DNA of 64,000 bases from Chloroflexota bacterium (GTDB lineage: Bacteria > Chloroflexota > Anaerolineae > UBA2200 > JACIWT01), in NCBI GenBank assembly GCA_014360825.1, contig JACIWT010000004.1, positions 124,001-188,000 on the forward strand, given 5' to 3'. The notes under the pieces are model-generated. The model was given only the letters and a program-made list of their open reading frames with translations. It searched no databases and was not told the DNA's origin. The translations under genes were made by a program, and so were the position numbers. Positions 26,205 to 29,593 of the stretch are shown here, piece after piece (position 1 is the stretch's first letter; each line of letters begins with the position of its first letter).

Positions 26205-26540
26205 TCAGCGCATAGAGCGCCCCCGCGCACAGGCCACGCACAGTGTTGTATCAGGCAAGATCTCCAGGCGTTCTGGTTCAATGGGCTGGCCGCAACGTTC
26301 GCAAATGCCGTAGCGATCCCGCTCCAGTTTCTGCAAAGCCTCACGGATGGACTCGATCCTTTGGCGCGCCCGTTCCCGCAAGGCCAGATTGAATTCCCAA
26401 TCGTATATGGCCGGATCGCCCAAGCCCGGTCCGTAATCCGCCTTATGCTCCAGTCGCTTTTCGATTATCTCCAGTTCAGCCAGTGCTTCCTGGAGTTCTT
26501 TTTCCAGTTTCGCTCTGATCTCAGCACTCATCTCGATCAT
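26205..26540 (-). CDS. DksA/TraR-type zinc-finger protein
   Basis: The 111-residue protein has the DksA/TraR design: an N-terminal coiled coil (EIRAKLEKELQEALAELEIIEKRL) with the acidic-turn region, and a C-terminal four-cysteine zinc finger (CERC, then CVAC). Related proteins act on RNA polymerase through its secondary channel. The coiled-coil tip lacks the DxxDxA motif in an obvious form, so DksA-like activity is not certain. The ATG at 26540 is preferred since GGGAGCG precedes it; a TTG four codons upstream is possible. It lies 114 bases downstream of rpsA. Confidence 0.82.
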   Translation of the reverse strand: MIEMSAEIRAKLEKELQEALAELEIIEKRLEHKADYGPGLGDPAIYDWEFNLALRERARQRIESIREALQKLERDRYGICERCGQPIEPERLEILPDTTLCVACARGRSMR

Positions 26541-26654
26541 CACCGCTCCCAAGGGACGAACAACTCGGTGGGAAGATGAAATCCGATCTCACAACACACT
26601 TGCCGCTGAGGATACGGGATGCACAGAGGCATAGGATTGCGGTTTCGGCGTCCC

Positions 26655-28178
26655 CTATGGTTTAATCAGCCCTCGTTCCTCATCGGCAGCCAGGCTTTTC
26701 CACAGGCTCTCGTTTTCATCAGGCGGGGTTACGGGTATCTCCTCCGTCGCCTCGGCGGGCGCGTTGGCGGCAGGTTGGACTTCCTCGGAGGACGATACCA
26801 GAACGGTCTCGACGCCCGTTTCCTTCGGCTCGGCTTCCCCTGTGCTTCCCGACGCAACGATAGCGCTGGCGGGTGCACTCGCCTCCTCCTCTTCTTGCCG
26901 AGCCAGCCATTCTTCCCGCTCTTCATCGGTCACGCGTCTCAGGCTCAGACCAATGCGCCGGCGGCGGGCATCCACCTTGATCACACGGAACAGGTGTCGC
27001 TCCCCCTCGGCGATGACCCGGCGCGGATCGGCTGGGGGCTTGTTGGCTAGTTCGGAGACGTGGACCAGGCCCTCAATGCCCTCCTCCAACTCCACAAAGG
27101 CCCCGAAATCCACCACCCTGCTGACGGTGCCCTCCACCAACTGGTCCACCCAGTAGTTGTCTTCCGCGAACAGCCAGGGATCTGGGCGCAGGCGCTTCAG
27201 GCTCAGGGCGATGCGGTTGTGCTCTCGGTCCACCCGCAGCACATGGGCCTCCAATTCATCGCCGACCTTGACCAGTTTCCGCGGGTTCTGGACCTGGCCC
27301 CAAGAGAGTTCGGAGATGTGGATCAGGCCATCCGCCCCGCCAAGGTCCACAAAGACCCCGAAATCGGCGATGCTGCTCACCCGGCCCCGCACCGTGCTGC
27401 CCTCCTGAAGGCTGTTCAATAATTGCTCCCGCCGGATGGCACGCCACTCTCGCATTGCCAGGCGCACCGAGAAGACCAAGCGCCTGTGTTCGCGGTCCAC
27501 CTCAATGACTTTCAGGGGCAGTTTCTGGCCCACCAGTTTTGCCATGCGCTCCTCGCGCTGGGCAGGGCTCAGACTACGCGGCATATTCGCGAGATGAGAG
27601 GCGGGGACAAAGCCGCGTATCCTCCCGAAGGGCACGATAAGCCCACCACGGTTGTACCCTGTCACCTGGCCCTCCCAAATCCCCCGGGACGAGGCCAGCT
27701 CTTCGGCTCGGATCCAGTCCTGCTCCATCCACCCGCGATGCAAAGAGACGATGAGGTTGCCTTCGTGATCTCGCGGTCGGAGCACATACACCGGCACCAC
27801 ATCACCTGGGTGAATGCCGGCCAAAACCTTTTTGTCCACCCTCTGTAGGTCGTTGGCAGGTACCAGGCCCTCGCGCTTGAGCCCCAAATCCACGATCATG
27901 CCATCGGGATTCATAGCCAACACCGTCCCGCGCCGGAGTTCCCCTCGCCGTGGACCCTGATAGTCGTACTCTCCGGCCAGCGCTTGCTCCATGCTATGGC
28001 TGTTCTCTTTTGCGACCTCCTGCTCCGAGGACTGTTCTGGCACTGAGATTGGGACACTCTCTTCTGCGCTTAGCGAGACTCGTCCGACGTGTTCAGCACC
28101 TCCTGTTATCGCAGGCGCCTCTGGCGCTTGCTCCTGCGGCTGCGTTTCGGGCGCAGCGCTTCCGGCTACATATTCCAT
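26655..28178 (-). CDS. rpsA: ribosomal protein S1 homologue with four S1 domains
   Basis: The 507-residue protein has an acidic, disordered N-terminus (residues 1-75), four consecutive S1 RNA-binding domains (about 78-150, 165-245, 262-332 and 347-417) and an acidic C-terminal tail. Domains 3 and 4 are the most canonical (SIADFGVFVDLGGADGLIH, VVDFGAFVELEEGIEGLVH). Ribosomal protein S1 brings mRNA to the small subunit. Four domains are usual outside Proteobacteria. GGAGG lies 4 bases before the ATG. Upstream there is a structured, terminated RNA that may be its regulatory leader. Whether it is a true ribosomal S1 or an S1-like regulator is not decided by sequence alone. Confidence 0.87.
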   Translation of the reverse strand: MEYVAGSAAPETQPQEQAPEAPAITGGAEHVGRVSLSAEESVPISVPEQSSEQEVAKENSHSMEQALAGEYDYQGPRRGELRRGTVLAMNPDGMIVDLGLKREGLVPANDLQRVDKKVLAGIHPGDVVPVYVLRPRDHEGNLIVSLHRGWMEQDWIRAEELASSRGIWEGQVTGYNRGGLIVPFGRIRGFVPASHLANMPRSLSPAQREERMAKLVGQKLPLKVIEVDREHRRLVFSVRLAMREWRAIRREQLLNSLQEGSTVRGRVSSIADFGVFVDLGGADGLIHISELSWGQVQNPRKLVKVGDELEAHVLRVDREHNRIALSLKRLRPDPWLFAEDNYWVDQLVEGTVSRVVDFGAFVELEEGIEGLVHVSELANKPPADPRRVIAEGERHLFRVIKVDARRRRIGLSLRRVTDEEREEWLARQEEEEASAPASAIVASGSTGEAEPKETGVETVLVSSSEEVQPAANAPAEATEEIPVTPPDENESLWKSLAADEERGLIKP

Positions 28179-28240
28179 AAAGCCTCCACTATAGCGGGAT
28201 GAATCCCACCCATATCGGTGGTGATGAGTGCGACCTTTTC

Positions 28241-28444
28241 ACAACACAAAACTCGGTGCCCTGCCCGGCACAAAAGCCGATGGGAACCGAGTCTCACCAT
28301 TCGAACTGATGCAACGGATAAGCGCAAAAAGTGCAGCCCGTGTCCCAGCCGTTCTTGGACGGTAAGCGGCAGGACGTACTATGCCCCACAACGCGGCCCT
28401 GACCTCAAGACTATAAGGTCGGCCCCGAGATATGAGATTACCCT
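28241..28444 (-). ncRNA. structured RNA upstream of rpsA (small RNA or attenuated leader)
   Basis: A 28451-28479 promoter predicts an RNA starting near 28444. It contains a hairpin with arms GACCT and AGGTC, an elongated arm that can pair GCG, GTG and GTCC with GGGAC, CAC and CGC around an apical CCGT-ACGG hairpin, and a possible closing pairing of TCTCAT with ATGGTGAGA. It ends in a two-step hairpin (ACTCGGT at 28292-28286 with ACCGAGT at 28257-28251, inner CGGC-GCCG) followed by TTTTGTGTTGT. There is no open frame. The total of about 200 bases and the elongated shape recall 6S RNA, but the position 63 bases before rpsA equally suits an rpsA attenuator. The foldings were made by eye. Confidence 0.5.
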
Positions 28445-28450
28445 GTGATT

Positions 28451-28479
28451 ATTCTACACCAATCCAGGGGAATTGTCAA
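28451..28479 (-). promoter_or_regulatory. promoter of the RNA upstream of rpsA
   Basis: On the minus strand TTGACA (28479-28474) and TAGAAT (28456-28451) are 17 bases apart. It is the only strong promoter in the 371-base gap between the LacI gene and rpsA. Confidence 0.82.
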
Positions 28480-28549: not shown

Positions 28550-29593
28550 CTAATGGGACTCGCTGCGGGGCGCAGCAACGGATGCGCGAATGACCAATTC
28601 TGTGGGCAAGGTGCGGCGCTCGCTGGTCAGTTCGCCCCACAGGACTTTGACCAGCAATTCGGCCGCCTGTTCGCCCTTGTCCACAATAGGTTGGCGCACC
28701 GTGGTCAACGGAGGGGTAGCGCACCCGGCTTCTGGAATGTCATCGTAGCCGATCACGGAGAGGTCCCTTGGCACTTCCAGACCGTACTGCTGAGCAGCGC
28801 CCATCACTCCCAAGGCAATGATGTCGCTCATGGCGATGATGACAGTGGGTGGCGACGGCGCTTGCCATAGGCGATGGAAAACTTCTGCCCCGCCCTCGAT
28901 GCTGTTTTCACACTCCACTATTTGGACCTCCGAGTGGTCGAGGGACAAACCAACAGTTGCCAGCGCCTCTGAGTAGCCCGCTAAGCGCCAGCGAAGTGTA
29001 CCAGTGTACTCGTGCCATCCCCCTTCTTTGCCTGACTCAAATGCGGCAATGGCAATGCGCCGATGCCCACAGTGAAGGGCATACATCATAGCCGCCCGCG
29101 CACCCTGGTAGTCCTCGATATTGATGCCGGGTACCCCATCCAGCGGCTCGCTATCCACCATCACAAAGGGCACGTGCCGCTGGCGAAGGATGTTCACGAC
29201 CGGGTCTTGAGGTTCCAGGCCCAGGACCACGAACCCATCCGCAATGGCGTGATCCACCGCCTTGAGCATCGAACCCTCGACTGGGGGAATCAGCATCAGC
29301 GACAAGGCTTCCTGATCACAAGTCCGCCCAATTCCACGTATGAACTGGATGAAGAAAGGGTTTTCCAGAATCGTGGGAATATCTTGGGGCAGAAGTAACC
29401 CCAATACTCCAGCCCGCCCGATGTTCAGGCTGCGCGCGATCGGGTGGGGAGCGTATCCTAATTCCTTCGCCACTGCTAAGATCTTCTGAACCGTAGCCTC
29501 CGAAAGGCGCGAAGGGTCATTGAAGGCGAAGGAGACGGCAGTCTTCGAAACACCGGCTCGTTCGGCAACATCTTTGATCGTCACTCGGGCCAT
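28550..29593 (-). CDS. LacI-family repressor of the maltose-type operon
   Basis: The 347-residue protein has a LacI helix-turn-helix at the N-terminus (VTIKDVAERAGVSKTAVSFAFN, hinge GYAPHPIARSLN) and a periplasmic-binding-like effector domain (HCGHRRIAIAAFES, VIGYDDIPEAG, TTVRQPIVDKGEQA). It ends the operon of the binding protein, permeases and amylase, 51 bases after the amylase. The perfect palindrome at 34570-34590 over the operon promoter has the size and symmetry of a LacI-family site and is the likely target. The effector is presumably a maltodextrin or related sugar, which is inference. AGGAGAG precedes the ATG. Confidence 0.92.
   Translation of the reverse strand: MARVTIKDVAERAGVSKTAVSFAFNDPSRLSEATVQKILAVAKELGYAPHPIARSLNIGRAGVLGLLLPQDIPTILENPFFIQFIRGIGRTCDQEALSLMLIPPVEGSMLKAVDHAIADGFVVLGLEPQDPVVNILRQRHVPFVMVDSEPLDGVPGINIEDYQGARAAMMYALHCGHRRIAIAAFESGKEGGWHEYTGTLRWRLAGYSEALATVGLSLDHSEVQIVECENSIEGGAEVFHRLWQAPSPPTVIIAMSDIIALGVMGAAQQYGLEVPRDLSVIGYDDIPEAGCATPPLTTVRQPIVDKGEQAAELLVKVLWGELTSERRTLPTELVIRASVAAPRSESH

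Follow-up and report, generated by a model that had tools for sequence, protein, structure and literature searches.

A probable transcription attenuator in the leader of a ribosomal protein S1 gene of Anaerolineae

The window analysed here is a stretch of 64,000 nucleotides from a Chloroflexota bacterium of the class Anaerolineae, and it carries on its minus strand a gene for ribosomal protein S1 (rpsA) preceded by a long untranslated segment. This segment is probably the 5′ leader of the S1 messenger, acting in cis as a transcription attenuator of S1. Sequence comparison brings out a conserved order of promoter, leader, terminator and S1 gene, a covarying terminator with a CYCGG motif, and an association with a single S1 clade. 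A sequence-only reading of the same DNA had offered two possibilities, a small RNA resembling 6S or an rpsA attenuator of a novel kind. The second is upheld by the conserved order, the restriction to one clade, the covarying terminator and a match to a model from which the window had been left out, while the first is not. An S1 attenuator leader attached to one S1 branch across the class seems to be previously undescribed.

Organization of the S1 locus

All features described below lie on the minus strand. The segment begins with a sigma-70-type promoter, TTGACA-17-TAGAAT (28451..28479), which matches the consensus at 11 of 12 positions and confirms what had been read from the letters; promoters of the same kind are found 160-450 nt before S1 in relatives. 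One such site was found at the locus and 0.6 are expected in shuffled sequences, so that the count alone is not beyond chance, whereas its position and its conservation are. Judging from the promoter, transcription would start at about 28444.

The leader (28241..28444, about 204 nt) extends up to the terminator. Its body sequence is unconserved and has no Rfam match, and no open reading frame of at least 60 amino acids is present on its strand, in agreement with the earlier description of some 200 bases lacking an open frame. The intrinsic terminator (28240..28295) had likewise been recognised correctly as bipartite with a T tract: it is a two-part hairpin folding at -27 kcal/mol in isolation and matched by a covariance model (see below), made of a 5′ arm GAGACTCGGTTCCC, an inner hairpin CGGCTTTTGTGCCG, a 3′ arm GGGCACCGAGT and the tract TTTTGTGTTGTG. 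It ends about 62 nt upstream of the S1 ATG at 28178, hence directly before S1, as previously stated, and no second promoter was found between it and this ATG. The start codon is preceded by a Shine-Dalgarno-like site, GTGGAGG (28183..28189). The S1 gene itself, the one proposed to be controlled (26655..28178), encodes 507 amino acids with four S1 domains. The locus thus has a promoter, an untranslated leader and a terminator before a ribosomal protein gene with no later promoter, the layout of a ribosomal-protein-leader attenuator.

Downstream of S1 is a DksA/TraR-type zinc-finger gene (26205..26552), possibly on the same transcript; the two genes could form an operon under one attenuator. Around 20 further S1 loci carry a homologue of this gene, most of them in the branch with leaders.

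Conservation of the arrangement

The S1 genes compared came from 41 genomes, 80 GTDB contigs and 396 genomes of the class Anaerolineae. When the whole leader was searched by BLAST against 40 relatives, the window itself was the sole match; although the leader sequence finds no relatives in this way, they can be found by position. In all five same-order relatives from which an S1 was recovered, S1 comes after a strong promoter, a 270-320 nt leader and a terminator whose 5′ arm reads CACTCGG. Under a fixed rule applied to the first set (a promoter scoring 11/12 or better, placed 140-430 nt upstream, together with a terminator), 22 of 108 S1 loci qualified against 4 of 231 other genes with an upstream gap of at least 180 nt (Fisher p 1e-8), and in a larger set a strong promoter 140-450 nt upstream together with a terminator was found at 75 of 190 S1 loci, these locus counts not being all independent since some species are present in two of the collections. 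None of 73 S1 leaders has a second promoter between terminator and ATG. The arrangement found in the window is therefore conserved in its relatives, as expected of an attenuator.

What is conserved is the layout rather than the leader itself. Alignment of six same-order leaders with MAFFT and RNAalifold gave no convincing common fold except the terminator and, the leader body being unconserved, no sensor domain was found in it. A lack of compensatory changes in relatives had been named as the finding that would refute the earlier reading, and it is not refuted in this way: the terminator stem covaries, while no conserved structure was found in the rest of the leader. In one group of related S1 leaders (L076, L078, L083, L084 and L090), an early segment is shared, with TCGT..AGACGA in several, and the terminator stands much farther from the start codon than in most leaders.

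A shared terminator signature

The terminators before S1 resemble one another. CYCGG occurs in the 5′ arm in 49 of 73 S1 leaders, against 26 of 547 other terminator-like hairpins drawn from the same loci and from the window. In an alignment of 33 S1 terminators, with that of the window left out, 95% of the stem cells are paired, and double changes fill 32 cells where shuffles give 11, none of the 500 being as good, whereas register-slid controls pair in only 26-50% of cells. Because the hairpins had been chosen partly for their ability to fold, this covariation result leans in favour, but the slid controls show that it is not trivial.

A covariance model was built from 33 other loci, blind to the window. 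Searched against the window's own genome of 2.9 Mb, it has a sole match, the window's S1 terminator (28294-28242, 27.7 bits, E 0.003). Over the 396 genomes, 26 of its 30 best matches adjoin an S1 gene, many of the matches, unlike the window, having been in the training set. The model's second-best hit within the window, at 17033-16978 on the minus strand (16.2 bits), is a hairpin with GGGCCCGG that is probably unrelated.

Fold of the leader and other explanations

Is the leader as a whole a structured RNA? Compared with shuffled sequences it is slightly more stable (z -1.74, with 12 of 200 shuffles as stable), and since this is barely above the shuffles, the word structured fits chiefly the terminator. 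An elongated 6S-like hairpin with a central bubble had been described, closed by a stem between TCTCAT and ATGGTGAGA. The whole-leader score lends the hairpin no confirmation, and the minimum-energy fold pairs TCTCAT elsewhere. Pairing of TCTCA with TGAGA is possible in principle and would partly exclude the terminator; no relatives supporting it were found. Of the original description, then, promoter, leader and terminator stand, and the elongated fold does not.

The covariance search that had been suggested, against Rfam with 6S RNA and ribosomal protein leaders included, was carried out and gave no match at the locus. No family reached its gathering score anywhere in the window, and around the locus, with E values up to 10, nothing relevant appeared, only spurious matches to unrelated models. 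Known riboswitches, the T-box and the Rfam ribosomal protein leaders were in this way set aside as identities for the S1 leader.

The least improbable of the other explanations, though an unlikely one, is that the RNA of about 200 nt released at the terminator acts in trans as a small RNA, S1 being transcribed by incidental read-through. It would account for the strong promoter and terminator of its own and for the length of the leader; yet the leader is single copy in the genome, and its sequence is unconserved even within the order while the place before S1 and the terminator are kept. Slightly less probable still is a metabolite riboswitch, or another sensor of a small ligand, controlling S1. 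A leader followed by a terminator is typical riboswitch architecture, but the absence of any Rfam riboswitch match, the failure to find a conserved aptamer-like core between leader families, and the link of the leaders to S1 only all speak against it.

Two further explanations have very little probability, to about the same degree. Attenuation mediated by ribosomes translating a leader peptide is a classical mechanism for terminators preceding genes, and a terminator does precede S1 here; small open reading frames with a ribosome-binding site, however, numbered 37 in the leaders against 45 expected in shuffles, and none is conserved. The hairpin could also be the ordinary terminator, devoid of any regulatory role, of the lacI-family gene whose end lies upstream at 28550, also on the minus strand, were it not that a promoter lies between this gene and the terminator, and that the terminator is conserved before S1 despite different upstream genes. 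Finally, a 6S-type RNA mimicking a promoter resembles the S1 leader in its length of about 200 nt and in having its own promoter in front, but can be practically discarded, as there is no fold or sequence match between them (RF00013 finds nothing at the locus at E up to 10, below the Rfam gathering cut-off), the relatives of the S1 leader do not fold like 6S, and the canonical 6S RNA of the same genome lies on another contig (G000:C19:13444-13621, 63 bits, above the cut-off).

A candidate antiterminator and the proposed mechanism

How might read-through into S1 be controlled? The best indication comes from one family of leaders, f36, whose sequences are highly variable except for two islands, a 5′ element GGCTGAGT and the terminator AACTCGGCC..GGCCGAGT. 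The 5′ element lies 5-25 nt from the -10 box. It is complementary to the terminator 5′ arm and resembles the 3′ arm, which is what would be expected of an antiterminator. Element and 5′ arm pair in 93.8% of cells, a share that falls to 15-49% in slid registers, and their true covariation is marginal (13/500). A promoter combined with the pattern GGCYGAGT marks a single S1 leader per genome in 10 genomes, the only additional hit being a tRNA gene, on reading a true tRNA-Ser gene, and the combination is therefore tied to S1. As GGCYGAGT resembles a tRNA D-arm, a tRNA-like element was also considered and rejected, no tRNA being found on 29 leader loci.

Beyond this family the signal fades. Measured by duplex energy over the whole leader, antiterminator pairing is not enriched over shuffles; contiguous pairing of the first 45 nt did better, and folding of truncated transcripts better again. 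In this last test, on transcripts of 48 leaders folded as if stopped before the 3′ arm, pairing of the 5′ arm with the first 40 nt reaches 0.40, and 0.20 in shuffled leaders (p 1e-4), but p is 0.09 once f36 is removed, so that the family drives the signal. In the window, the candidate element is GGGGCCGA (28419..28426, minus strand), complementary to TCGGTTCC in the terminator 5′ arm (28290-28283). Contiguous pairing of this kind has p ~0.05 for the first 45 nt, and ensemble folding of the window transcript does not favour it (0.09). An antiterminator is thus a supported feature of f36 and a putative one in the window.

Attenuation of S1 could then proceed as follows. RNA polymerase would start at the strong promoter about 270 nt upstream of S1, copy the untranslated leader and reach the intrinsic terminator shortly upstream of the S1 ribosome-binding site. 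With no promoter beyond the terminator, only read-through transcripts would yield S1. Read-through may be regulated by alternative pairing, the 5′ end of the transcript sequestering the 5′ arm of the terminator. The signal, the least certain step, might be the level of free S1 or of a partner RNA-binding protein: once bound, either would free the 5′ arm, and the terminator could then form, which amounts to a negative feedback on S1. The exclusive link of the leader with S1 suggests feedback by the product, and free S1 is our guess for the trigger. The fuller proposal, a class-wide regulatory RNA attached to one S1 clade in which the 5′ end mimics the 3′ arm as antiterminator and S1, an RNA-unwinding protein, is the likely sensor and regulator, is distinctly more tentative than attenuation as such, and we hold it to be possible rather than probable. 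If true, the autogenous control of S1 would here be exerted on transcription.

Comparison with known systems

Several ribosomal protein leaders in Rfam act by attenuation. Those described there (L10, L13, L19, L20, L21, S4, S15 and others) are, like the S1 leader, untranslated and located before a ribosomal protein gene, but they have conserved protein-binding folds, none of which was found in the S1 leader, where they give no match at E up to 10. Closer in character are the rimP-leader, in which a terminator signature is conserved but no larger element is, and the multiform rpsL-leader, whose form varies from group to group (Naville and Gautheret, 2010, PMC2965389). Both are transcription attenuators before translation genes, as the S1 leader would be. 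The rimP-leader has a GGGc..gCCC terminator motif before rimP, whereas the present one has ACTCGG..CCGAGT before S1 and so does not belong to it; neither rpsA nor Chloroflexi is named in that attenuator survey (PMC2965389).

The S1 protein of gamma-proteobacteria binds the leader of its own messenger and thereby represses translation of S1 (PMC10931766). This E. coli type rpsA operator, responsible for autogenous control by bS1, resembles the window's leader in being an S1-gene leader proposed to control S1 synthesis. It acts on translation, however, and needs the absence of a canonical Shine-Dalgarno site (PMC10931766), whereas the window's leader has both a GGAGG site and an intrinsic terminator. 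In the literature searched, S1 autoregulation is described at translation only and in gamma-proteobacteria, and nothing was found on the control of ribosomal proteins in Anaerolineae. Nor was an S1 attenuator found in the open literature, subscription papers being outside the scope of the search. Most likely, the S1 leader joins the known ribosomal-protein-leader attenuators as an addition with class-wide distribution. It suggests that terminator and role can persist in a leader even as almost all the remaining sequence drifts, a type of element that Rfam-style searches miss.

Two branches of S1

The leader follows the phylogeny of the protein. A tree of 111 S1 proteins includes 24 genes with leaders, 22 that satisfy the fixed rule and two added on inspection by eye. 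Every one of them belongs to a single clade of 42 rows (SH-aLRT 100), and none is among the other 69 rows. A tree of 183 proteins places 71 of 72 leader-bearing genes on the side of the window's S1, the exception (L026) being in an uncertain group; both trees are quick ones with a midpoint root and some long branches. The other side has mostly short leaders. Within the clade that carries the long leaders, some members have short leaders or none.

The genome of the window contains at least two further S1-type proteins, one of them a second full S1 (L062, G000:C33:4011-5168), which sits on the short-leader side, devoid of attenuator leaders. In the same-order family, the leader-bearing S1 is the only one per genome to pass E 1e-60, so that it is probably the working ribosomal S1 there. 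The attenuator would thus be tied to one S1 branch, the other branch, in the same genome, being mostly without it, and this offers a direct approach to the questions of why two S1 proteins are retained in these bacteria and what determines their supply.

Some other S1 genes deserve mention. A further S1-type protein of the window's genome, L063 (G000:C21:9638-10387), is a long-branch relative. In family f29 (L006, L144 and L145), the S1 leader is only about 75 nt long and seems to retain just a strong hairpin, its T tract displaced, immediately ahead of the start codon. At L016, L072 and L192, an S1 of the leader branch seems to come immediately after rpoC (identified by eye from where the reading frame ends), without the long leader.
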